Assembly (NCBI RefSeq): GCF_003258705.1
Contig: NZ_CP029480.1
Coordinates: forward strand, 5,084,001-5,148,000
From: Arcticibacterium luteifluviistationis
GTDB taxonomy: Bacteria > Bacteroidota > Bacteroidia > Cytophagales > Spirosomataceae
Direction of reading: 5' to 3'
Length of the DNA: 64,000 bases
Shown here: positions 1,246-61,887 of the stretch, piece after piece
Layout: every line of letters starts with the position of its first letter
How positions within the stretch are numbered: position 1 is the stretch's first letter
Notes under the pieces: generated by a model
Seen by the model: only the letters and a program-made list of their open reading frames with translations
Database searches by the model: none
What the model was told of the DNA's origin: nothing
Program-made: the position numbers and the translations under genes

Positions 1246-1273
1246 GGTTACAAAAACACATACCACCCGGATA
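1246..1273 (+). promoter_or_regulatory. ECF-sigma-type promoter, copy 1 (GGTTACA-N16-GGATA)
   Basis: GGTTACA at 1246-1252 is followed after exactly 16 bases by GGATA at 1269-1273, 42 bases before the ATG of the next gene. The same pair of boxes with the same spacing precedes four further units downstream, which is why I call it a promoter and not a chance match. Confidence 0.75.
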
Positions 1274-1315
1274 TAGCATAAATGAAGTTTCTCATACATT
1301 TAAAACTATATCTAA

Positions 1316-2590: not shown

Positions 2591-2618
2591 GGTTACAAAA
2601 CAGAAAAGGCTTGGGATA
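2591..2618 (+). promoter_or_regulatory. ECF-sigma-type promoter, copy 2 (GGTTACA-N16-GGATA)
   Basis: GGTTACA at 2591-2597 and GGATA at 2614-2618 have the same 16-base spacer as copy 1. The site lies 27 bases before the ATG of the LytTR gene and would drive the two-gene unit 2646-4261. Confidence 0.75.
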
Positions 2619-2645
2619 TCTATTTATAAAACATGAAAATCTGAT

Positions 2646-2984
2646 ATGAAAGAAATTCCAAATGAAGCAGTATTCTTAGGAGCCCAGACTTTCCTGCTAC
2701 CTCAAAACATCACACACTTAGAAGCAGACGTGAATTATACCACCGTATATTCAGGATCTGGCAAACAACAAACCCTTTCCACCACCTTACACAAAGTGCA
2801 TAAATGCTCGAATGAGCATGGTCATTTTATAAGAATAAGCCGTAAACACGTGGTGAATATGGACTTTGTGGAAAATCAAAAAAAAGACGGACGCATATTA
2901 GAGAATGGCTTAAAACTAAGCTTCTCTAGACGAATGGGAAAGGCCTTTTTAGAAAACTTAAACCTTCTAAACTTAACAGCATGA
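2646..2984 (+). CDS. Stand-alone LytTR-domain DNA-binding protein
   Basis: The 112-residue protein consists almost only of a LytTR DNA-binding domain (about residues 12-105), the beta-rich fold found in AgrA and AlgR type regulators. Landmarks are ITHLEADVNYTTVY near the start, FIRISRKHVVN in the middle (the usual F-x-R-x-HRS-x-hVN motif with K for the usual H) and SRRM near the end. There is no receiver domain or membrane segment, so its signal input is not visible. Its last four bases overlap the ATG of the next gene, giving translational coupling to a secreted protein. It may regulate that protein or other members of the block. The family call is firm; the targets are inference. Confidence 0.88.
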   Translation: MKEIPNEAVFLGAQTFLLPQNITHLEADVNYTTVYSGSGKQQTLSTTLHKVHKCSNEHGHFIRISRKHVVNMDFVENQKKDGRILENGLKLSFSRRMGKAFLENLNLLNLTA

Positions 2985-4387: not shown

Positions 4388-4415
4388 CGTTACAAAAAAG
4401 CCCATCACTAGTATT
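4388..4415 (+). promoter_or_regulatory. ECF-sigma-type promoter, copy 3 (CGTTACA-N16-GTATT)
   Basis: CGTTACA at 4388-4394 and GTATT at 4411-4415 show the same spacing as the other copies, with C replacing the first G. The site lies 19 bases before the ATG at 4435, which supports that start. Confidence 0.7.
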
Positions 4416-4434: not shown

Positions 4435-5391
4435 ATGAATAAAATACTAGTAGCTCTCTTATACCTTACAAGCCAATTTGCGTTCTCACAGTCGCCAGCC
4501 GAAACTATTCCAGATACACTTGATCTAGAAATAGAAACTACTGAAGAAGAGTTGGAAGAATCTTCTTGGGAATTTCTTTTCACCCTTGGTCTGAACGTAA
4601 GTCACGCGATGGAGCGAAACAACCCAAGCGGCACAGACAATAAAGGTTTTGCCACCAATAATTCCTTGGATATAGGCGTCAATTACATCAAAGAAAATGC
4701 AAGATTTAATATGACCAACGATTTCCATTATACTATAGGACTTCTGAAAGATGGGGGAAACAGTAATTTGCCGCTAAAGCGAACCTCAGATGACTTAAGC
4801 TCATTTCATGACTTCTCCATATCATCAAAGAAAAATCAAAAATGGAATGTAAACCTCATAGCCAAAATATTTACCTCCGCTTTAAAAGTATATGATGGCG
4901 ACTTCCTAAAAGACGAATATCAAACTGGTCAAATTCAAGGGTTCTTTAACCCTTATGACATCTCCTTTTCTCCTGGCATTAAATTTCAACCAGATGATTA
5001 TCTCAGGATTTCACTCTCTCCATATTCTGTTAACCTATACGGCCTGACTAATCAAAGCATTGCCAATACAGGCTTTTATACCGACTCTTTAAAAAGCAAT
5101 GGAGATTATATCAAGAAAGTAACAAGCCCTTTAGGTGCAGAGGTCAATGTATGGTATGACAGAAGTTTTAAAGAGTGGCTTGAATTACAATATAGAGTTG
5201 GAGTGTCGTCAAATTACTTTACAAACATTGCCAAAAATGGGCTATTGGATGGCCTTTTTATAACTAAAGTCAAACTATTCTCTGATGTCTATTTAATGCA
5301 CAGAGCCACCTTGCAGGTCGATTTCACAAACAAGCCGCTGAAACCACACTATCAGCGGACCATTTTACTAAGTTTTTCTAAAAGTTTTTGA
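4435..5391 (+). CDS. Exported DUF3078-like protein
   Basis: The frame is open from 4342, but that start sits in a terminator and upstream of the promoter. ATG 4435 gives a 318-residue protein beginning with a Sec signal peptide (MNKILVALLYLTSQFAFSQ). The mature protein is a series of alternating hydrophobic and aromatic strands ending in LSFSKSF, with a terminal Phe as in outer-membrane beta barrels. The order of segments (a W-rich N-terminal strand, then KRTSDDLSSFHDFSI, FSPGIKF, SLSPYSVNLYG, LGAEVNVWY) resembles DUF3078, a Bacteroidota family of unknown role. An acidic stretch follows the signal peptide. It is probably an outer-membrane or periplasmic barrel. The DUF3078 link is from memory of the family and is moderately sure. 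Confidence 0.75.
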   Translation: MNKILVALLYLTSQFAFSQSPAETIPDTLDLEIETTEEELEESSWEFLFTLGLNVSHAMERNNPSGTDNKGFATNNSLDIGVNYIKENARFNMTNDFHYTIGLLKDGGNSNLPLKRTSDDLSSFHDFSISSKKNQKWNVNLIAKIFTSALKVYDGDFLKDEYQTGQIQGFFNPYDISFSPGIKFQPDDYLRISLSPYSVNLYGLTNQSIANTGFYTDSLKSNGDYIKKVTSPLGAEVNVWYDRSFKEWLELQYRVGVSSNYFTNIAKNGLLDGLFITKVKLFSDVYLMHRATLQVDFTNKPLKPHYQRTILLSFSKSF

Positions 5392-5398
5392 GACTGGA

Positions 5399-5426
5399 GG
5401 TTACAGAAACTGTACGCACAAGTATT
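5399..5426 (+). promoter_or_regulatory. ECF-sigma-type promoter, copy 4 (GGTTACA-N16-GTATT)
   Basis: GGTTACA at 5399-5405 begins 8 bases after the preceding stop codon and GTATT follows at 5422-5426 with the fixed 16-base spacer. The leader to the ATG at 5496 is 69 bases, the longest of the five. Confidence 0.72.
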
Positions 5427-5949: not shown

Positions 5950-5977
5950 GGTTACAAAAACCACCCTTAGAAGTATA
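5950..5977 (+). promoter_or_regulatory. ECF-sigma-type promoter, copy 5 (GGTTACA-N16-GTATA)
   Basis: GGTTACA at 5950-5956 and GTATA at 5973-5977 match the other four copies in sequence and spacing. It lies 26 bases before the lipoprotein gene and would drive the lipoprotein-CHAT operon. Confidence 0.75.
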
Positions 5978-6003: not shown

Positions 6004-6963
6004 ATGAAATCAATAAAACTATTATTTCTCATCATTACAGCCGCTCTTGCCTTTCAAGCTTGCAGGGTTAACAAGCCCATTACTTCTGAAATGAAGTTGA
6101 CAGAAGTTTATGTAGAGTCTGGAAACATCAATCCTTCTACCTTAAACTTTTCTTCCAATGGTCACTTTAATTCTAGCCATTCGGTTATTGGACTAATTGA
6201 TAGTACGGCAGATTGTGTAAATAGCAATGGATACATGGCTAAAGATAATTATGTCTATGTTTTTGAAGGGGGTGCCATCCCAAATAAAATAATCAAAATG
6301 GGTCCTTTTTTGAGGTACTTGTTCTTCAAAAAAGCCAGATGGACAAACAATTACAATTATAACCTCCCTTTTGATGCCGAAATATGTAAGGACGAACCAA
6401 ATAAGCATTACTATTTCAGATTGGCAGGCAATACTTTACGACAAGAAGCTACTATAAGAGGTGAAAAAGTATATAGATTTAAAGAAGATATTGTGGAAGA
6501 GAATTATACTGAAATTCTAAATACAATGAAATTCCTTAAAGACAGAAAAAGTCCTATTAATTATCACAGTTTATTGCGTCTAAATCCTTCTGTTTTTAAA
6601 ATGGAGAGTACTAGACCCGGACTTATTGTTAATACTGATTCAGGAACTATAGATTTAAGTAACAGTTCAGAAACGCCTTTAGGAAGTGTTGACAAAATCC
6701 TTTTCAAATCAAATAATCCTAGAATCAAATCTTTCAGGTTTAGAACTATTTATAAACAACTAAACCCTCAAATACAAAATAGATATTTTGACCAAAATGG
6801 TGATGTTATAGATTTCTCCGCTTGGCTAAGTTATTTACAAGGGAATGTTTTCCTCAAATATAATGAGAAAACAGTAAAGGGTTATACCTGTTTAAAATGT
6901 TCCCACAATAACCCTTCTATCAGAGGTGAAGACAGTAATCCACCTCCAGGAATGATGCCTTAA
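6004..6963 (+). CDS. Lipoprotein of unknown function, operon partner of the CHAT protein
   Basis: The 319-residue product has a lipoprotein signal peptide with lipobox AFQAC (Cys20), so it is anchored in a membrane facing the periplasm or surface. Apart from this the sequence is unfamiliar. It has a basic, aromatic middle region (FLRYLFFKKARW near residue 105) and a C-terminal C-L-K-C pair at about residues 298-301. The stop codon TAA shares its last A with the ATG of the CHAT gene, so the two are translationally coupled and probably work together. A role as sensor, anchor or substrate of the CHAT protein is possible, but the sequence does not show which. Confidence 0.8.
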   Translation: MKSIKLLFLIITAALAFQACRVNKPITSEMKLTEVYVESGNINPSTLNFSSNGHFNSSHSVIGLIDSTADCVNSNGYMAKDNYVYVFEGGAIPNKIIKMGPFLRYLFFKKARWTNNYNYNLPFDAEICKDEPNKHYYFRLAGNTLRQEATIRGEKVYRFKEDIVEENYTEILNTMKFLKDRKSPINYHSLLRLNPSVFKMESTRPGLIVNTDSGTIDLSNSSETPLGSVDKILFKSNNPRIKSFRFRTIYKQLNPQIQNRYFDQNGDVIDFSAWLSYLQGNVFLKYNEKTVKGYTCLKCSHNNPSIRGEDSNPPPGMMP

Positions 6964-9614
6964 TGAAGATTTATCTAATCATATTATCCCTTGCCCTGAG
7001 TTTCGCTTTAGAAGCTCAGGACTTGGTGTTTTCTACTCATAGTAATTACCCATCTAAAATAATCGACTCTTTAAACAATGGTCGTATTGAGCCATATCAA
7101 GCTAGGGCAAAACTAATATCCTATCAAAGCTGGGCTAAGAGAAAAGGCAAAGTTTCTGAAGCTATTGATAATTATTACTACCTGCCATGGACTTTTTATG
7201 CAGAGGCGAATTATAATGAGGTTATTAAAACATATCAAAAAGGCATTAAGGAAGCTTTAGAGTTCACAAGCACGCCTATTGATACTATTCGGTTTAAGCT
7301 ACTTTCTGATTTGGGTTCTCTTTATTTAGTTGAGAACAATTTAGTTGAAAACCTTTCAATGGCTTATCAGTTATATAAGTCAAATATTGAAATTGAAAAA
7401 AGTGTACCAACAAATCTACTGAGCCTCTTAAATAATTATGCCTATTACCACCAATTAAATGGCGATTGGGAACAAAGTGTCATTTATTTAAAAGAAGCTC
7501 AAAGAATAGGAAAAACATACCTTAAAGACCCAGAATTACTTTCATATGTTTATCGAAATTTAGGCCGAGCTTACTATTTTCTAAACCAGAAAACCGAAAC
7601 AGAAAAATATTACTTGCTAGCGGTTCAAACATCAAAAGAAGCCCTAAACAAGGCCAAAGGACTTTATGATTTAGGAATATTATATCAGGAGACTAATAGG
7701 CCAGTAAAAGCAGAAACAAGTTTTCATAACTCCATAAGTACCATTACTCATTCAGGGTTTGCTAAAAAGCCTCTTGGCCAAATAGTAGTCCAAAGAAACC
7801 AACTCGGTCTTGCCAAATCATCAATTTCAAGAGGTGATTACAATTCTGCGTTGAAAAAAGTCTTATTAGTAAAACAAAATCCAATTAGCATATTAGAACA
7901 ACTGGATGCAATTCTAATTCAATTAGAAATTCCAAATCACAATCTGGACACATTGTATGAAGCTGGCCTAGTTTTAAGCAATACTAATTTGACTAATTAT
8001 ACCAGTATATCTCCAAATCACACAACCGCTTTTCTTTATAAAAAAGCAGAAAAAACTAAAGCAATTTCCGACTACCAGAATTTAGTTAACTGGCTTTCTC
8101 ACGTACGTCAAAACAATATAGGTTCTCAAGCAAAATTTAGAGTTTCAGCAGAGGTTCATGATTTAACTTCGGAGGTTTTAAAATATGCTAATTCCCAAAA
8201 TGCTTTTGAGTTTTTGGAATTAACTAAAGCAGCAGAACTTTTAGAAATAAATAGACGAATAAATATAAAGGAACCTTTTGTGAAAGAATTGGCACATTTA
8301 GACAGAAAAATAAGTTCTCTTTCCATTAAGGCTACAGAATACGGATTGGATTCAACTCTCTCCCTAAAAATAAGACAGGCACAAATAGAACAAAGTATTT
8401 TAAGTCAAAAAATAAAAAAAGAAAACCCCACATACTATCAGGAAAACTATTTCTGGAAACCAGCTGAAACAGAGGAAATCCAAAAAAAACTTAAACCAAA
8501 AGAGCTCTTAATTTCCTATTTCATGGATGAAACTGATATCTACATTTATGTTATAAAGAATAATAAAAAGGGAATCATAAAACTTCAAAAAGATACCGAA
8601 TTTGACAACAGACTTTTAAGCTTTATTAATAATATAAGTTTAAACCCTGGCTTGGGAGTTTATAACTCCGATTCAGAAGCTCAATTCTTTTATAGCAAGT
8701 TGATTGAACCTATATCTGATTACTTAAAGGGCGTTGAGGATTTAACAATCATTAGAGATGGACTCTTAAATATACTTCCCTATGAAGTTTTAGCGTACGC
8801 TACAGATAGCTATTTATTAGAAAAATATTCCATCACTTATAACTACTCATCCACTTTGGCTTTAGAGCAAAGAGTAAAAAAACACTTAAGTGATTTGACA
8901 AATATTCTTGCTTTCGCCCCATATACAAATCAAGGCTGGACCTCAAGCTTATTTAGAAATAAAAGCTTGGGCCAATTGCCTTTTTCGGACAGCGAGGTAA
9001 ACCAAATTGACGGAACAGTTTACAAAAACGAAAATGCCACAAAAATCAAATTCTTAGAAAACTACCAAAAGCATGGCATAATCCATTTTGCCACCCATGC
9101 TCAAATGGACGACACCGACCCTTCCAAATCCTTTATAGCTTTCTTTCCAGATAGTTCCGACTATAAACTTTATACCGAAGAACTCTATAATTTATCGCTT
9201 AAAAACACGCAATTGGTGGTGTTATCTGCCTGTGAAGCTGGCGGCGGAAAACTTCAAAAAGGCGAAGGTTTAATGTCGCTTGCCAGAGGATTTGCTTACG
9301 CTGGATGCCCTGCAGTAATCACCACCTTGTGGAAAGCAAACGACCAGAGCACCGCTTGGCTTTCTGAAAGGCTACACCATTACCTGAGTAAAGGTTGGAA
9401 CAAAGCAAAAGCATTACGTCAGGCGAAATTAGACTTTAGGGCATCCGACATTGGTCAAGAATTTGACCATCCTTACTATTGGGCTAACTTTATTTTAATA
9501 GGCAGTGATGAACCATTAGAAAAGACATTTTGGCAGCTTTACAAATGGTGGCTAATTGGAAGTATGTTTATAGTCCTAATACTAATTGGGGCCTGGAGAA
9601 TTAAGAAAACCTAA
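6963..9614 (+). CDS. Exported TPR-CHAT protein (caspase-like protease fold)
   Basis: The 883-residue protein starts with a Sec signal peptide (residues 1-18). Residues about 70-300 form tetratricopeptide-like helical pairs (for example ALYKSNIEIE and YRNLGRAYYFLNQ regions), followed by more helices to about residue 500. Residues about 510-850 are a CHAT domain, a relative of caspases and separase. The His/Cys dyad is intact: His712 in FATHAQ and Cys757 in LSACEAGGG. Also typical is the later RGFAYAGCPAVITTLW stretch. A single membrane helix at about residues 858-878 is followed by a basic tail (RIKKT), so the protein is probably anchored with its TPR and CHAT domains in the periplasm. It is coupled to the lipoprotein gene and overlaps the convergent anti-sigma gene by 3 bases. 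Cleavage of the anti-sigma factor or another secreted partner is an inference. Confidence 0.9.
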   Translation: MKIYLIILSLALSFALEAQDLVFSTHSNYPSKIIDSLNNGRIEPYQARAKLISYQSWAKRKGKVSEAIDNYYYLPWTFYAEANYNEVIKTYQKGIKEALEFTSTPIDTIRFKLLSDLGSLYLVENNLVENLSMAYQLYKSNIEIEKSVPTNLLSLLNNYAYYHQLNGDWEQSVIYLKEAQRIGKTYLKDPELLSYVYRNLGRAYYFLNQKTETEKYYLLAVQTSKEALNKAKGLYDLGILYQETNRPVKAETSFHNSISTITHSGFAKKPLGQIVVQRNQLGLAKSSISRGDYNSALKKVLLVKQNPISILEQLDAILIQLEIPNHNLDTLYEAGLVLSNTNLTNYTSISPNHTTAFLYKKAEKTKAISDYQNLVNWLSHVRQNNIGSQAKFRVSAEVHDLTSEVLKYANSQNAFEFLELTKAAELLEINRRINIKEPFVKELAHLDRKISSLSIKATEYGLDSTLSLKIRQAQIEQSILSQKIKKENPTYYQENYFWKPAETEEIQKKLKPKELLISYFMDETDIYIYVIKNNKKGIIKLQKDTEFDNRLLSFINNISLNPGLGVYNSDSEAQFFYSKLIEPISDYLKGVEDLTIIRDGLLNILPYEVLAYATDSYLLEKYSITYNYSSTLALEQRVKKHLSDLTNILAFAPYTNQGWTSSLFRNKSLGQLPFSDSEVNQIDGTVYKNENATKIKFLENYQKHGIIHFATHAQMDDTDPSKSFIAFFPDSSDYKLYTEELYNLSLKNTQLVVLSACEAGGGKLQKGEGLMSLARGFAYAGCPAVITTLWKANDQSTAWLSERLHHYLSKGWNKAKALRQAKLDFRASDIGQEFDHPYYWANFILIGSDEPLEKTFWQLYKWWLIGSMFIVLILIGAWRIKKT

Positions 9615-10252
9615 AACAAAAGCCTTACTTTCATTTTTAACCTTTCCATGATTGAAATTGGATATTTAAACGGCTCCTTAGCTTGCAGTTCATCAAAAAG
9701 TAATGACGCTTTTTCTTCATCAACCTCTGATAAAGCTACTACCTCATACCATCGAGCTGCATCTTGATAATATGTTCTCAAATCAGTATTAGATTTCAGC
9801 TCAGAAAAAGCATTTGCCGCCTCTTTAAAATCGCCCTCCCCTAAAAAATCCTGAGCTTTTATATATTTTTGATACACTTCATTTTCTCCTACAGATGAAT
9901 CTGTTGCTCCCCTTTCTTCTAAAACAAGTTGATTTGGCAACTCAAAAGAGGCATTTCCAAGATAGATAGTAAACACAAGACAAGCCGCCGCTAAAGCACT
10001 TACCACCTTAATATAAACGCGATTTGGAGTAAAGTTAACTACCTTCTCGTCGCTCCACTCGGTCATCTTACTTTGGTGAATTCCTATTATCTTATCACGT
10101 AGAGCTTGACGCTGAAAACCCTCATAAACTACCGTCATAGACGCCAAAGCTTCTGAAAGTTCCGGCTCATTTTTAAGACGAACCTCTAACTCTTTATCTT
10201 CCTTGCCTGATTTAAGATAGGCTTCTAATATTTCTAAATCTTGTTCTGACAT
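9611..10252 (-). CDS. Probable membrane anti-sigma factor
   Basis: The 213-residue protein has a cytosolic N-terminal part (about residues 1-75, acidic, helix-rich), one membrane helix at about 80-100 (VVSALAAACLVFTIYLG) and a periplasmic C-terminal part with a helical repeat-like stretch (AQDFLGEGDFKEAANAF). No zinc HxxxCxxC motif is seen. The gene starts one base after the stop codon of the ECF sigma gene. That position and topology are the usual arrangement of a sigma factor with its membrane-bound antagonist. The family itself is too divergent to name, so the role rests on context. The periplasmic domain faces the same compartment as the neighbouring CHAT protein and lipoprotein. Confidence 0.75.
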   Translation of the reverse strand: MSEQDLEILEAYLKSGKEDKELEVRLKNEPELSEALASMTVVYEGFQRQALRDKIIGIHQSKMTEWSDEKVVNFTPNRVYIKVVSALAAACLVFTIYLGNASFELPNQLVLEERGATDSSVGENEVYQKYIKAQDFLGEGDFKEAANAFSELKSNTDLRTYYQDAARWYEVVALSEVDEEKASLLFDELQAKEPFKYPISIMERLKMKVRLLF

Positions 10253-10253
10253 T

Positions 10254-10835
10254 TCAACGAAATCTGGTATCTGTAATTACTTGCATCAGTTTTTTTAAGC
10301 ATTTGCTTTTTGCGTTTCTAAGTACTTGTTCGTTATCATAAACGCCTTCAGCTACAAGTTCAGCTCCAAGTTCTTTTATAGTATATCCGAGTCCGAAGAC
10401 AGAATGTAATATCCTTTTGCAATTTTTTCCTATTTTCTCAAAAATTTGAAGATAATTGTCCCACGTTTCTTTATCTGATAATAATTGATACACATCAGGT
10501 TCTACTTGGTCTTGGTCAAAATAAGTATGCTGACGATTTAATCTAGCAGACTCCGAACTCAATTGTTTAAACCATAAATTCTTTAAGATGCTTTTTAGGT
10601 AAGAATTCAAGGCAACCCCTTCCTTAAAAGAATATTTTCCATTCCTGACATTATTAACTAGAGCCTCTATTCCTTCCCAAATAATATCTTCTGGTTCTTT
10701 GGCATTCTCCTGATTATTGAATTTTCTGAGAAAGCCTAGAAGCAACATCTTATTCTGTTCATAGAGCTGTTCAATAGCTCTATTCTCAGCAAGGCCACCT
10801 GCCTTAATACCTTCAATTATATCTTTATCAGTCAA
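10254..10835 (-). CDS. ECF-type RNA polymerase sigma factor
   Basis: The 193-residue protein has the two-domain ECF layout. Region 2 spans about residues 15-95, with EPEDIIWEGIEALVNNV in place of the usual DAEDLVQE-type polymerase-binding segment and SFKEGVALNSYLKSILKNLW as the DNA-melting part. Region 4 spans about residues 125-185, a helix-turn-helix with RILHSVFGLGYTIKELGAEL and NAKSKCLKKL. It would direct polymerase to its own set of promoters. A plausible target is the GGTTACA-N16-GKATW promoter repeated five times between 1.2 and 6 kb. Its own upstream region lacks that motif but has a TAATTTTG box, suggesting housekeeping transcription. Confidence 0.88.
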   Translation of the reverse strand: MTDKDIIEGIKAGGLAENRAIEQLYEQNKMLLLGFLRKFNNQENAKEPEDIIWEGIEALVNNVRNGKYSFKEGVALNSYLKSILKNLWFKQLSSESARLNRQHTYFDQDQVEPDVYQLLSDKETWDNYLQIFEKIGKNCKRILHSVFGLGYTIKELGAELVAEGVYDNEQVLRNAKSKCLKKLMQVITDTRFR

Positions 10836-11251: not shown

Positions 11252-12946
11252 ATGTTATACAAAATCATCAAAAGCGGTGATCTATTTAGAATTTCTTGTT
11301 TTTTTCTCATTAGCTTTTCGCTTGTAGCACAAGACAAAAAAGAACCGCGTAAATCCTACAATTCTGTCAGCACCATTTATGATAGCTGTCAGGTAGTTTG
11401 TAATCTATTCCCAGCCAATAGAGAAAATCTAGTAGCTACAGAAGAATTAGTTTTCCCAGCCATTACTAATAATTCAGAATGTTATAAAGTACCAAACGAT
11501 TTTAACCCTGGATGCCTTTTAAGTTACAATAATTCCAAATGGTTTCTTGTCAAAGTACTTGATGGAGATTCTCTGACCTTTAATTTTGAGAACTCCAATA
11601 ACTATGATATTGATGCTGCTATTTGGGGACCTATTGCCGGTAACGATTTAGATTCGACTTGTTTTACAAGTACACAATTTCCACAATCCTGCGACTACTC
11701 TGCCATTAATCCAACTTTAAATCTTTATAACGCAGACTCTGGAAGTTTCTATCTACTGACCATTACAAATTACTCCAACGACGACACCGACATTTTACTA
11801 AAGCAACCAGAAGGAGGAAGTGTGATATACTCCTACTTCTGCTCTGAAACAAGTAATATAAGTTCACCAAGTGGCGGAAAGCAAAACCTACAAGCAATCA
11901 ATAGCTTACAGCTAAGTTTTGAAATATCGCCTTCTAGCTCCTTTACAGCCAAAGGTGGTAACAGTATTGAGCTGCTCCCAGGTTTTGAAACAGACAGTTC
12001 CACAGTGTTTAGTGCCAATATTGGCGAATGCATCAATACCAGTCAAAATTATAATCCAGATAGTTCTATAATTGTTTGTGAAAATTTTGACAATCACAGT
12101 AAAAATAGCCCACACTTGTATACCAATGCAAGTTCAAATGAAATGGTAGGAACTGTCTTTGCCATTACACAGCCAGAATGCAGAATAAATTCTGAAGATT
12201 CTTTTTTAAAAATGAGTAAAATTGGCGTGGACAAAGATTCTACTAGGTTTTTATGGGGTTATAGAGAACCATATACATCTCCATCTAATATACACCTTAG
12301 AACAAATGAAGGATGTCCTACTTATCCAGACCAGAGAACTACCCAAATGGAATATCTCTATAGAGCGGAAAGAACATTGCCTATTTTAGACACCATTGAG
12401 AATTATGCCAATTTAAATACCCCGTTTCACTTATCAAATGACTTAAGTTATGGCCAGTATAACAATTATGACCTCTGGAATTTTTATTTAAAAGGTGGCA
12501 TAACAAACCTGACGTATAGAATTAACGGTGGTTCATGGCGTGCGTCAATAGATTATACACCTGTTTGGGAACCATTTACGGAAAGATATCTAGATGTAAC
12601 TAGAATAGAACACATTGGTAATGTCCCAAAAGACTTCTACATGGATTTCACTACCGACGATGGGCTAACAGTTGACCGCTATTTAGTCACCAGAAGCTCC
12701 TGTGGTGGACATTTTTGTGGAACAACGGTATTCAACAGACTCGCAGATTCTACTGTAATTGTAAATGTTTTTCAAGGCGACATAAATGTGGACATGCAAC
12801 TAGGCAGCTATGCTCCTTTTGGTGGATTTGGTACTTGCTTTAACCTTGGCAAACTATCAGAAGGAGAGCATTCCTTTCCTTTAAAATCAGCCAAAGGCGA
12901 TTTTGTTTTAGACCCAGATATCTTTGTGAGAGTTAAGTTTGACTAA
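11252..12946 (+). CDS. Large secreted protein with 3-coathanger-like segment
   Basis: The 564-residue product has a long signal peptide (residues 1-26, ending LVAQ). Residues about 60-180 resemble the beta-sandwich found at the N-terminus of Bacteroidota adhesins (AAIWGPIAGNDLDSTC followed by a strand ending GSFYLLTITNY). Residues about 205-250 (SLQLSFEISPSSSFTAKGG, then IELLPGFETDSSTVFSANI) match the small 3-coathanger stack repeat common in secreted Bacteroidota proteins. The remaining 300 residues are unfamiliar, with several Cys and aromatic residues. There is no T9SS tail or lipobox. It ends 4 bases into the convergent pxpA gene. A surface or extracellular location is likely, function unknown. 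Confidence 0.78.
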   Translation: MLYKIIKSGDLFRISCFFLISFSLVAQDKKEPRKSYNSVSTIYDSCQVVCNLFPANRENLVATEELVFPAITNNSECYKVPNDFNPGCLLSYNNSKWFLVKVLDGDSLTFNFENSNNYDIDAAIWGPIAGNDLDSTCFTSTQFPQSCDYSAINPTLNLYNADSGSFYLLTITNYSNDDTDILLKQPEGGSVIYSYFCSETSNISSPSGGKQNLQAINSLQLSFEISPSSSFTAKGGNSIELLPGFETDSSTVFSANIGECINTSQNYNPDSSIIVCENFDNHSKNSPHLYTNASSNEMVGTVFAITQPECRINSEDSFLKMSKIGVDKDSTRFLWGYREPYTSPSNIHLRTNEGCPTYPDQRTTQMEYLYRAERTLPILDTIENYANLNTPFHLSNDLSYGQYNNYDLWNFYLKGGITNLTYRINGGSWRASIDYTPVWEPFTERYLDVTRIEHIGNVPKDFYMDFTTDDGLTVDRYLVTRSSCGGHFCGTTVFNRLADSTVIVNVFQGDINVDMQLGSYAPFGGFGTCFNLGKLSEGEHSFPLKSAKGDFVLDPDIFVRVKFD

Positions 12947-25396: not shown

Positions 25397-25963
25397 TTAT
25401 ATGAGTTTTGCCAATTGATTTATAAGTTGTGTTTTTTCTCTTTCTATGGCCTCCAGTTGCTGTAATAAGCCTTCATCTATATTATAATTACCCATTACTT
25501 CCCTCAAATCGCTCTCTGCCATTTTAAGGTATTCATATTCTGCTTTTAAGTTTTCAAACTCATGGTCATCGCACGCTACCGTTTGAATTTCACAAAAAGC
25601 TAAAATCTCCTTGTACGCTTTTTCGGAGCTCAGGTTTTCAGGCAAAACCTTTATTTCTTCTATACTTTTTTGAGCATAAACCAAGTCTTCTTTGGATTGG
25701 AAATAAAAGACAGAAAAACTAAAAAAAACTAATACACAGGCAGCCACCGACCACCATTTAATTCGGCTATTTCTATCTAAAGACTTTTCTAGTTTAAGCC
25801 AAGAATCCGCATTAGGTTCATGAATAGGAAGCTCTTTCAAATTCTGCTTTAAAGCAGCTTGGTCTAGCTGCTTTTCCATCTTTGACCAGAGTTCATTCTC
25901 AGGAACAAACTCTTGGAGATTTTTCAGCTGTTGCGATATGTCTTTTTTATCCTTGTGTTCCAT
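25397..25963 (-). CDS. Probable membrane anti-sigma factor
   Basis: The 188-residue protein has a cytosolic N-terminal half (about 1-74) in which a short motif is repeated: VPENELWSKMEKQLDQ and EPNADSWLKLEKSLDR. A membrane helix follows at about 75-94 (WWSVAACVLVFFSFSVFYF), then a periplasmic helical tail. Its start codon overlaps the end of the ECF sigma gene by 17 bases. Topology and position fit an anti-sigma factor, though no named domain is recognised. The periplasmic tail has two Cys (in FCEIQTVACDD) that could form a disulfide. Confidence 0.75.
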   Translation of the reverse strand: MEHKDKKDISQQLKNLQEFVPENELWSKMEKQLDQAALKQNLKELPIHEPNADSWLKLEKSLDRNSRIKWWSVAACVLVFFSFSVFYFQSKEDLVYAQKSIEEIKVLPENLSSEKAYKEILAFCEIQTVACDDHEFENLKAEYEYLKMAESDLREVMGNYNIDEGLLQQLEAIEREKTQLINQLAKLI

Positions 25964-26471
25964 CTAACTTTAAAACCAATTCTTTCAATTTCTTTTTCCC
26001 GTGATAAAGCTGAGACTTAGAAGTACCTACCGCTATACCCAGCATTTCACTAATTTCATGGTGTTTATACCCTTCTATTTCATAAAGTACTATCACCGTT
26101 CTAAAACCTTCTGGAAGCATGAGCAAAGCTTTTTGAAGCAGCTCTCCATCATACTGTTTATCCCAAACAATTTCTCTTTCCGCTGCTTTAGAATCCAAAT
26201 GGTCAAAAATCACACGATTACGGTATTTCCCAATTGCCTTTCTACTGACAATCACCTTAATCCAAGCTCCAAGTGTACTTTTCATCTGGAAATTTTTAAT
26301 GCCAGAGAAAACCTCTAAAAAAGCCTCTTGAAGCACATCTTCTGCCTCCGAAAAATCACCGCATAACCTGTAGGCAAGCGTGAACATAGCCGTCTTATAC
26401 TTTTCATAAAGTAATTTCTGGCATTCGCGATTTTTAGAAATACAGCCTTTTACAAGTTCGGCTTCGGTCAT
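25947..26471 (-). CDS. ECF-type RNA polymerase sigma factor (RpoE-like)
   Basis: The 174-residue protein is a standard ECF sigma factor. Region 2 (about 10-80) contains LCGDFSEAEDVLQEAFLEVFSGI, the usual DAEDLVQE-type segment, followed by the TLGAWIKVIVSRKAI DNA-melting part. Region 4 (about 112-165) has LPEGFRTVIVLYEIEGYKHHEISEMLGIAVGTSKSQLYHGKKKL, a classical helix-turn-helix. It heads a five-gene minus-strand operon with an anti-sigma factor, a DUF4097-like protein and two barrel-like proteins. None of the GGTTACA promoters is upstream of it. Confidence 0.93.
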   Translation of the reverse strand: MTEAELVKGCISKNRECQKLLYEKYKTAMFTLAYRLCGDFSEAEDVLQEAFLEVFSGIKNFQMKSTLGAWIKVIVSRKAIGKYRNRVIFDHLDSKAAEREIVWDKQYDGELLQKALLMLPEGFRTVIVLYEIEGYKHHEISEMLGIAVGTSKSQLYHGKKKLKELVLKLDGTQG

Positions 26472-60639: not shown

Positions 60640-61887
60640 TTATCTAGGTCTTGCAGAAGAAGAACTACGAGATGAACTAGAAGAAGAACTTGAGCTTCCT
60701 CTTGAGTAACTTCCCGTAGAAGGGCTTGAACTCCTTGTAGAAGTAGCCGCACTAGAGTAAGTAGAGTTAGTTCTAGTAGGCGTACTGCTAGAGTTTCTAG
60801 ATGTTCCAGTAGAACTTGAGCTCGGCGTATAGCTTCTTGCTCTTGTAGCCGTTCTAGAATATGTATTAGCACTTGACCTTGGAGAAGTAGCTGTTCTACT
60901 TAATCCAGAGTTAGAAGCACTTCTAGTACTTACGCTTCTTGCTGAGCTCCTAGTGTACGCATCATAAGAAGATGGTCTACTACTTGCTGAAGTATAAGTT
61001 CTTCCGTTTGCTCTGCTAGCAATTGCTGACCTTGAACCCGTTGTACTCGTTCCAGTAGCACGCCTTGCACTATTAGCTGTAGTCACAGGCTTTCTAGTAT
61101 TCACAAAACCATCATTATAAAGACTTGATGCTCTTCCACTGCTAGATCTTGGACCGTAACTTCTACTTCCAGCAAATCTTGAATCACTTGCTAATACTGG
61201 CTGCACACCATAGTAAGAGTTACCATAGCCATTACCATAAGCCGAATACATTCCATAAGAGCTGTAACCCCAAGGGCTATATCCGAAAGAATTGTAACCA
61301 TACGGGCTGTAACCAAATGAGTTCATGCCAAAACGGCTAGACCCAAAACTATTAATACCGTAAAATCCTCCATAAGCCAATGAACCCATTCCTAAGTAAG
61401 AACCAAAACCTGAATTAAAAGGAGAGTATCCAAAAGAATTATAACCATAACCACCACCGAAAGGGTTATTGAAAGAATTCCAGCTATTCAAGTTTCTTGA
61501 GCCACTCCAAGCGTAGTCGTTCCACCCTTCTGCATATCCCTCAGCATATCCTGAAGTGTAACCCGCATCTGGCGTATAAGCTCTCTTAAGAGAATTAGCA
61601 GAAACATAGTTTTCATCAAAGTAAGTATCTGTACCTTCCACACTTTCACCATCCACGCTAGTTTCTACTGGCATGCGGTCATAAGCATCGTTATAGTCGG
61701 TAAGGTATTCAGGAGAATAAGCCTCCGAAGATTTTGAAACTGTAGGGGCGTAAGCTACAGGAGCATCTGATGATGTGCCATACATATCATCATACTCACC
61801 ATTGCTAACTAAAGTCTTACTGGTAGAACAACTAGTCACAGCTGCACCTACGAACAAAGACAAAGCGATATATTTTATATTTTTCAT
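60640..61887 (-). CDS. Low-complexity lipoprotein with aromatic repeats and Ser/Arg tail
   Basis: The 415-residue product is a lipoprotein (lipobox AVTSC, Cys20). Residues about 140-225 contain repeats of N-S-F-G-Y-S-P and Y-G-Y-N-S type units rich in Gly, Tyr, Phe and Ser. Residues about 230-415 are very rich in Ser, Thr and Arg, ending in runs of Ser. An antisense-direction frame of about 96 codons at 60582-60872 is an artefact of this repetitive tail. The protein is probably a surface or matrix lipoprotein; the repeats suggest self-association or adhesion. No family is recognised. Confidence 0.85.
   Translation of the reverse strand: MKNIKYIALSLFVGAAVTSCSTSKTLVSNGEYDDMYGTSSDAPVAYAPTVSKSSEAYSPEYLTDYNDAYDRMPVETSVDGESVEGTDTYFDENYVSANSLKRAYTPDAGYTSGYAEGYAEGWNDYAWSGSRNLNSWNSFNNPFGGGYGYNSFGYSPFNSGFGSYLGMGSLAYGGFYGINSFGSSRFGMNSFGYSPYGYNSFGYSPWGYSSYGMYSAYGNGYGNSYYGVQPVLASDSRFAGSRSYGPRSSSGRASSLYNDGFVNTRKPVTTANSARRATGTSTTGSRSAIASRANGRTYTSASSRPSSYDAYTRSSARSVSTRSASNSGLSRTATSPRSSANTYSRTATRARSYTPSSSSTGTSRNSSSTPTRTNSTYSSAATSTRSSSPSTGSYSRGSSSSSSSSSRSSSSARPR

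Follow-up and report, generated by a model that had tools for sequence, protein, structure and literature searches.

Proteins that join a tetratricopeptide repeat (TPR) array to a CHAT domain, a protease domain of the caspase/separase kind, are common in Bacteroidota, and to our knowledge no substrate has been described for them in this phylum. What such a protein might cut is the question raised by a 64,000-nucleotide stretch (the window) of the single-contig, 5.38 Mb genome of Arcticibacterium luteifluviistationis (NZ_CP029480.1, positions 5,084,001 to 5,148,000), in which a TPR-CHAT gene lies tail-to-tail with the genes for a single-pass, anti-sigma-like membrane protein and an extracytoplasmic function (ECF) sigma factor. 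A first-pass annotation of this stretch had put forward that the CHAT protein acts on the anti-sigma protein, an idea that now finds backing in residue-level co-evolution between the two sequences. The three genes probably form a signalling module in which CHAT cuts the anti-sigma protein to free sigma, and changes shared on seven branches of the CHAT tree strongly suggest that CHAT is the site-1 protease of its predicted substrate.

The predicted CHAT protease and its neighbours

Four open reading frames (ORFs), encoding an exported partner protein, the TPR-CHAT protein, the anti-sigma-like protein, and sigma, were confirmed at the coordinates first given for them. The CHAT gene (6963..9614, plus strand) encodes 883 amino acids: an N-terminus (MKIYLIILSLALSFALEAQ) that reads as a signal peptide, a TPR array, a CHAT domain at residues 576-848 (Pfam PF12770, E 1.7e-57, 195.5 bits against a cut-off of 24), and a C-terminal membrane helix at residues 856-882 followed by a KK tail. 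Because of the signal peptide and the C-terminal helix, the TPR and CHAT domains are predicted to face the periplasm. The catalytic His712 (codon 9096..9098) and Cys757 (codon 9231..9233) were read directly, bearing out the early description of an exported TPR-CHAT protein with an intact dyad, and both residues align in 169/169 modules. Among CHATs with an anti-sigma/sigma pair within four genes, 33 of 38 carry a strong N-terminal hydrophobic stretch. A C-terminal membrane helix is found under a lenient threshold in 37/38 of these linked CHATs versus 27/43 unlinked ones (Fisher p 9e-5), and under a stricter threshold in 30 of 38 versus 23 of 43.

The structure model of the CHAT protein (mean predicted local distance difference test score, pLDDT, 80.8; predicted template modelling score, pTM, 0.80) finds its best fold matches in Csx29 and separase. 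Alignment with VIA-align gave Z 31.3 over 506 residues (root-mean-square deviation, rmsd, 12.8) for Csx29 chain 8eex_B and Z 31.2 over 547 residues (rmsd 9.1) for 8eey_B, and Z 27.4 over 310 residues (rmsd 3.0) for the catalytic part of separase (5fby_A). A separase-like fold in itself demonstrates no function; together, the modelled fold and the conserved dyad support a working protease. When solved structures were searched by sequence, the full protein or a full-length profile drew mostly TPR proteins, and the CHAT part alone found DdvA at E 1.3e-4 and Craspase at E 0.013-0.032. The CHAT gene of the nearest relative (L182 6677-9417, also L016) is split into two overlapping ORFs of 645 and 284 amino acids, owing to a frameshift or an assembly error.

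The anti-sigma gene (9611..10252, minus strand) encodes 213 amino acids, and its stop end shares four bases with that of CHAT (9611-9614), one more than the three-base overlap first reported. The AlphaFold2 model (mean pLDDT 88, pTM 0.60) lays out a helical N-domain, predicted to be cytoplasmic, a membrane helix at residues 76-100 (9953..10027), a poorly defined linker at residues 101-120, and TPR-like helices from residue 121. The predicted topologies of the two proteins are consistent with the earlier claim that the CHAT domain and the C-terminal half of the anti-sigma protein both lie in the periplasm. TPR-type models match up to 28/42 relatives of the protein, and zf-HC2, a putative zinc finger of a kind found in anti-sigma factors, matches 4/42, the window protein not among them. 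A comparison of the model with the PDB returned no strong fold match (best E 0.038, to BamD); the tentative designation as an anti-sigma factor fits the predicted topology and the gene order beside sigma. The sigma gene (10254..10835, minus strand, TTG start) encodes 193 amino acids and passes the ECF model TIGR02937 narrowly, with 43.5 bits against a cut-off of 42.9; the same model matches 31/31 sigma members of one alignment (A5) at E<=1e-3. Pfam sigma region 2 scores 19.6 bits in the window protein, under its cut-off of 24.

The first-pass annotation had named absence of a sigma pair beside CHAT genes in related genomes as grounds for giving up its model, and such pairs were found repeatedly. 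The only other CHAT of the same genome (E<=1e-5; 1333245-1335746) is also tail-to-tail with an anti-sigma/sigma pair, with identities between the two modules of 28% for CHAT, 25% for the anti-sigma protein, and 21% for sigma. CHAT matches at E<=1e-15 occur in 167/291 genomes of the window's order, at most three candidates being scored per genome. In a sample of 80 regions plus the window, the regions being mainly the highest-scoring ones with some hand-picked further down and none random, a sigma/anti-sigma pair lies within four genes of 38/81 full-length CHATs (>800 amino acids), including both from this genome. Conversely, a CHAT lies within five genes at 44/60 loci found with an anti-sigma profile, a count biased upwards because the profile was built from CHAT-linked members. 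These loci came from the top of the profile-match list with picks further down, none random and with loci already in the CHAT sample excluded, and seven of the 44 CHAT neighbours (L134, L135, L137, L138, L141, L143, and L144) lack a membrane helix, occupy the same conserved position in genomes related to one another, and amount to one case. The second CHAT with the same convergent neighbours and these two counts indicate that the association exceeds chance. Across the phylum, the anti-sigma profile matched 257 of 296 genomes at E<=1e-6, many of the matches being partial.

Further loci gave the same picture. Of 80 named CHAT loci, among them Emticicia, Spirosoma, Mucilaginibacter, Flavobacterium, Niastella, and many Chitinophagaceae, 57 have the pair, 53 of these being new, as do 36 of another 40 loci from the window's family. 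Four gene orders occur in the 160 placed modules: convergent (87), same strand with the anti-sigma gene upstream (44), divergent (15), and same strand with it downstream (14). Such company, kept through rearrangement, argues for function. A divergent form of the module (L095, L107, L108, L110, L111, L113, L115, and L123, with extensions L147-L154) is found in genomes that share the class and belong to another taxonomic order; in it, proteins of about 650-680 and 255-340 amino acids separate CHAT from sigma, and the anti-sigma gene is followed by a row of proteins of about 259, 378, and 343 amino acids. One Bacteroidota-type module (L218) comes from a metagenome bin titled Williamsia sp.; Williamsia is an actinobacterium, and the bin is probably mislabelled or mixed.

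Co-evolution of CHAT residue 678 and the linker motif

Beyond the membrane helix the anti-sigma linkers diverge except at one spot, where an Arg or Met is followed mostly by Gly, Ser, or Asp. In the window this spot is Arg114-Gly115 (9908..9913, minus strand), the predicted P1-P1' cleavage motif. Block mean pLDDT within the linker is 70 and then 53, and the lowest block, residues 111-120, contains the motif. Arg114 lies 14 residues outside the membrane helix; the median distance from the predicted helix end is 23 residues (interquartile range 20-26, range 10-36). Arg followed by Gly or Ser occurs at 67/3672 linker positions versus 29/8132 positions in the rest of the periplasmic part. Left out before the motif was counted were anti-sigma-like hits of another kind (L013 2429-3280, L018 1380-2018, L019 2905-3621, L029 9854-10543, and L080 8202-9077). 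In the alignment of 169 modules, the motif column holds Arg (119), Met (43), Leu (4), Gln (1), Lys (1), and His (1).

The identity of this residue is mirrored in CHAT at Glu678 (codon 8994..8996), a predicted S1-pocket residue. In a discovery set, position 678 was acidic in 56/57 modules with an Arg motif and in 0/15 with Met or Leu, the 15 loci of the latter class (one of them Leu) having been assigned by reading, partly against the first pattern. That set left out 11 CHATs missed by the Cys pattern (nine cut at a stretch edge, plus L136 and L145), all of which are included in the 169 modules; L125 was left out of both. Three tests followed the same pairing into other loci. First, the nine edge-cut loci, all of Arg type, were extended, and Glu678 was found in 9/9. 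Second, under a rule fixed before the data of the two later sets, the named loci gave 49 Arg/acid pairs, one non-Arg/non-acid pair (L165), and no discordant pair among 50 scorable new pairs, with no call for three more. Finally, loci around a Met-type CHAT gave under this rule 26 Met/non-acid and two Arg/acid pairs, with four no-calls (all non-acid); discordant calls are weighed below. Across the 169 modules, for which the alignment column was used in place of the rule, Arg accompanies Glu or Asp at 678 in 118/119, non-Arg accompanies a non-acidic residue in 49/50, and no Met is paired with an acid.

A tree of CHAT sequences was built without column 678. On this tree, acidity at 678 and Arg in the motif each change eight times, and seven of the changes fall on the same branches, among them switches in the single sequences L086, L071, L073, L136, and L165. 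When the motif trait was simulated along the tree, 0/4000 runs reached the observed correlation of 0.97, the largest being 0.84. Mutual information over 87,525 CHAT/anti-sigma column pairs places 678-Arg114 first (z about 11, 10.8-11.0), and the second CHAT position is 710, two residues before the catalytic His. A tree-aware scan of 164 modules examined 1225 anti-sigma recodings and 904 sigma-column recodings. All six changes of the motif column were shared with the seven of 678 (6/6, score 0.86), while the next anti-sigma column and the best sigma column each reached 0.23.

The pairing follows charge, an acidic residue at 678 going with Arg and a small or hydrophobic one with Met or Leu, so position 678 appears to behave like an S1 pocket residue that tracks P1. 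Separase also cleaves after Arg. One pair departs from the common types: L165, from Spirosoma endophyticum, has Lys678 with a motif residue called Met by the rule and aligned as His, where Arg and Glu are the residues in the close relatives L163 and L167. This pair has possibly decayed or been re-specified.

Proposed mechanism and its alternatives

From this near one-to-one co-evolution we infer a catalytic contact between the two proteins and a cut after the motif residue, with activation of sigma by that cut. At rest, the single-pass anti-sigma protein would hold the ECF sigma factor back at the cytoplasmic side of the inner membrane. CHAT would be exported and anchored by its C-terminal helix, which would place the catalytic domain in the periplasm just above the membrane. 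A signal registered by the TPR array of CHAT, or by the TPR-like domain of the anti-sigma protein, would lead CHAT to cut the anti-sigma linker after Arg114 (after Met in other branches). With its periplasmic domain lost, the remaining stub would be open to further proteolysis, for which an RseP-like site-2 protease is assumed, and the freed sigma would transcribe the neighbouring exported-protein genes and the CHAT operon.

Co-evolution speaks to recognition, not to outcome, and CHAT might recognise the linker through pocket residue 678 and yet turn the response off or mature the anti-sigma protein. Precedent points the other way: the DegS cut in the membrane anti-sigma factor RseA starts sigma release, a parallel drawn in a passage of PMC10028731. 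In addition, the nearest relative also has a promoter-like element before the CHAT operon, which suits positive feedback. We regard a silencing or maturing role as unlikely.

Besides the upward bias of the 44/60 count, several observations weigh against cleavage of the anti-sigma protein by CHAT. In terms of gene association, 43/81 CHATs have no pair within four genes, and 16/60 anti-sigma loci have no CHAT within five genes of the fetched stretch. A whole-genome search (E<=1e-8) of the 15 genomes behind those 16 loci found such a CHAT elsewhere in ten, in some cases just past the fetched stretch (e.g., G375 and G479). Of the five genomes in which this search found none, three lack a motif where it would be expected: one (G030) has none at all, one (G029) has RG only 42 residues out, and one (G035) has KTG. 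The other two, G564 and G503, retain the motif. The fetched stretch of the first (L114) yielded no sigma gene; in the second (L133) sigma and anti-sigma form one ORF missing parts of both. The CHAT-less genomes are few, and they lean the same way as the co-evolution, the motif or an intact sigma also appearing to be lost.

Some anti-sigma proteins keep the motif although no CHAT lies nearby, which would suit a docking or structural element in a non-catalytic complex, with CHAT serving as a receptor and its catalysis directed at another target such as the partner or exported proteins. We hold this to be decidedly improbable: the dyad is kept in all 169 modules, the motif sits in a low-confidence linker, the residue pair obeys a charge logic, and the second-ranked CHAT column lies two residues ahead of the catalytic His.

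The covariation has its own exceptions, which count against the cleavage model in the same way. The fixed rule was discordant in three of 31 Arg/Met calls in the Met-rich set (L245, L251, and L275); a reading of their linkers gives TMG, ELG, and ERS, sequences that would be compatible with the pocket, and the 169-module alignment column places them with the majority. Within the 169 modules two break the pattern, L018 (Arg with Gln678, the sole Arg without an acid) and L029 (Gln with Glu678). In plain mutual information, column 678 also leads when CHAT is compared with sigma columns (z 8.1, versus 10.8 with the anti-sigma motif), which we attribute to one clade of 40 that holds most of the 50 non-Arg modules. 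Much of the mutual information is therefore shared ancestry, and alone it was rejected as proof; only the tree-aware tests separate the motif signal from the sigma-column signal. That linkage and covariation are mere by-products of the shared descent of a co-travelling gene block, as this sigma peak and the correlated CHAT, anti-sigma, and sigma distances (r 0.46-0.65) might suggest, is scarcely credible given that 7/8 changes coincide on single branches, including single-sequence switches, that no other tested column in anti-sigma or sigma follows them, and that the genes occur in four orders.

Cleavage of the anti-sigma protein by CHAT has relatives among described systems, and the first-pass annotation was wrong to treat CHAT control of sigma factors as something not established. 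PMC10028731 describes that Csx29 of Craspase cuts the sigma inhibitor Csx30 and that CASP-sigma binding motifs occur in its own locus. The type III-E CRISPR system of Csx29, Csx30, and CASP-sigma resembles the present locus in its TPR-CHAT fold (Z 31) and in a sigma inhibitor encoded alongside; unlike Csx29, which is activated by an RNA-guided Cas7-11 complex, the protease here is predicted to be exported and membrane-anchored, and its candidate substrate is a transmembrane TPR protein. Membership in Craspase was rejected on this predicted topology and on the NCBIfam type III-E sigma model NF041236, which gives the window sigma 16.3 bits against a cut-off of 100. The Craspase substrate is reported in a passage of PMC9729208 to be cut after Leu407; the Craspase residue aligned with 678 is Gln, which fits the code, but this alignment is too weak to carry an argument.

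According to PMC4374960, inactivation of the anti-sigma factor DdvA renders DdvS active in Myxococcus xanthus. The solved DdvA (PDB 8rot/8rw5), presumably the M. xanthus protein given its name, is a transmembrane anti-sigma factor, and its chain includes a CHAT region that shares the fold seen here (Z 24). Unlike DdvA, in which anti-sigma factor and CHAT share one chain, the window has two ORFs on opposite strands linked by a conserved motif. No paper on the DdvA structure was found in the open-access literature searched. Text in PMC8999054 notes CHAT proteins, along with subtilase and carboxypeptidase proteins, in the genetic context of ECF54 sigma factors and proposes proteolytic control. 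As in the window, CHAT lies near an ECF sigma; ECF54 is proposed to act without an anti-sigma factor, whereas the present model turns on an anti-sigma protein and its predicted cut site. By analogy with proteolysis of the RseA/DegS and RsiW type, a cut outside the membrane would be followed by further proteolysis and sigma release. Where those pathways use enzymes of DegS or PrsW type for the site-1 cut, the present one would rely on a separase/caspase-like CHAT cysteine protease.

CHAT action on a sigma inhibitor is already known from Craspase, and the new result here is the co-evolution. No description of a separate two-protein periplasmic CHAT/anti-sigma module was found in the open-access papers searched, which leaves its unpublished status unproven. 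A defence system was considered and rejected: at E<=1 the anti-sigma protein drew a single weak PADLOC match (E 0.0085), and CHAT, sigma, and the partner drew none. If the proposal is correct, a caspase/separase-like enzyme takes its place in transmembrane sigma-factor signalling without CRISPR, and Craspase could have been recruited from such a background. The predictions of a substrate, a cleavage residue, and a specificity pocket extend to an entire class of proteins, and the suggested two-letter code (Arg or Met) could serve in building orthogonal protease-substrate pairs. More tentatively, we speculate that the locus represents a widespread, undescribed Bacteroidota pathway, in which periplasmic separase/caspase-like site-1 proteases would act on transmembrane TPR anti-sigma factors under a lock-and-key code that matches an acidic residue 678 to Arg and a small or hydrophobic one to Met or Leu, with Craspase and DdvA as captured or fused offshoots of an older membrane use.

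Promoter-like elements, partner protein, and neighbouring genes

The five promoter-like copies noted at the outset are present in the window, all on the plus strand. They consist of GTTACA, 16 or 18 bases, and GTAT or ATAT, and stand before the partner-CHAT operon (element 5, 5950..5976) and four neighbouring genes or operons: a 122-amino-acid exported protein (element 4, 5399..5425), an exported protein with a likely start at 4435 (element 3, 4388..4414), a small LytTR protein together with an exported protein (element 2, 2591..2619), and an exported 373-amino-acid protein (element 1, 1246..1274). The pattern has one additional, unrelated match in the window, at 61269 on the other strand, and was not found before the sigma gene. 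The form GGTTACA-N13-17-GTAT occurs three times in the window against 0.10 expected (0/100 shuffles). Across the genome, GGTTACA-N14-16-AGTAT is not enriched (four matches versus four in a reversed control), and two stricter forms give five matches (controls 1 and 1) and two matches (controls 0), two and two of them in this cluster.

The proposed positive feedback through copy 5 draws a little support from the nearest relative, which has its element 52 bases upstream of the partner gene, and from Emticicia loci, where a looser element lies near the likely start in 2/6 and a match some 200 bases further up in 3/6. These elements, the weakest part of the account, suggest a small local regulon with feedback on CHAT. 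The LytTR DNA-binding protein (2646-2984, plus strand) lies inside this predicted regulon, just after element 2, and its gene overlaps the start of the next exported protein.

The exported partner protein (6004..6963, plus strand), to which no function is assigned, shares one base of its stop with the CHAT start (TAATG). It had been taken for a lipoprotein that might act as the sensor. Its lipobox is poor (FQAC), the homologue in the nearest relative begins with an apparently ordinary signal peptide, and among the ORFs of the fetched loci no relatives of it precede CHAT outside Emticicia-type loci and the nearest relative. The partner therefore cannot be a general input, and its role as a conserved sensor was rejected on this narrow distribution. 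A second iteration of the search added two weak matches elsewhere, L171 14147-15430 and the window's own 1316-2437.

Just past the sigma gene, an exported protein with a GCX_COOH (3-coathanger stack) domain is encoded at 11252-12946 (plus strand), and the promoter-like pattern was not found before it. Further along, at 25397-26471 (minus strand), the window holds a second ECF sigma factor (25947-26471) beside a short protein with one membrane pass (25397-25963), which the anti-sigma profile picks up and which lacks the motif. The ORF list places no obvious CHAT alongside this pair, which makes it a natural contrast to the CHAT module.

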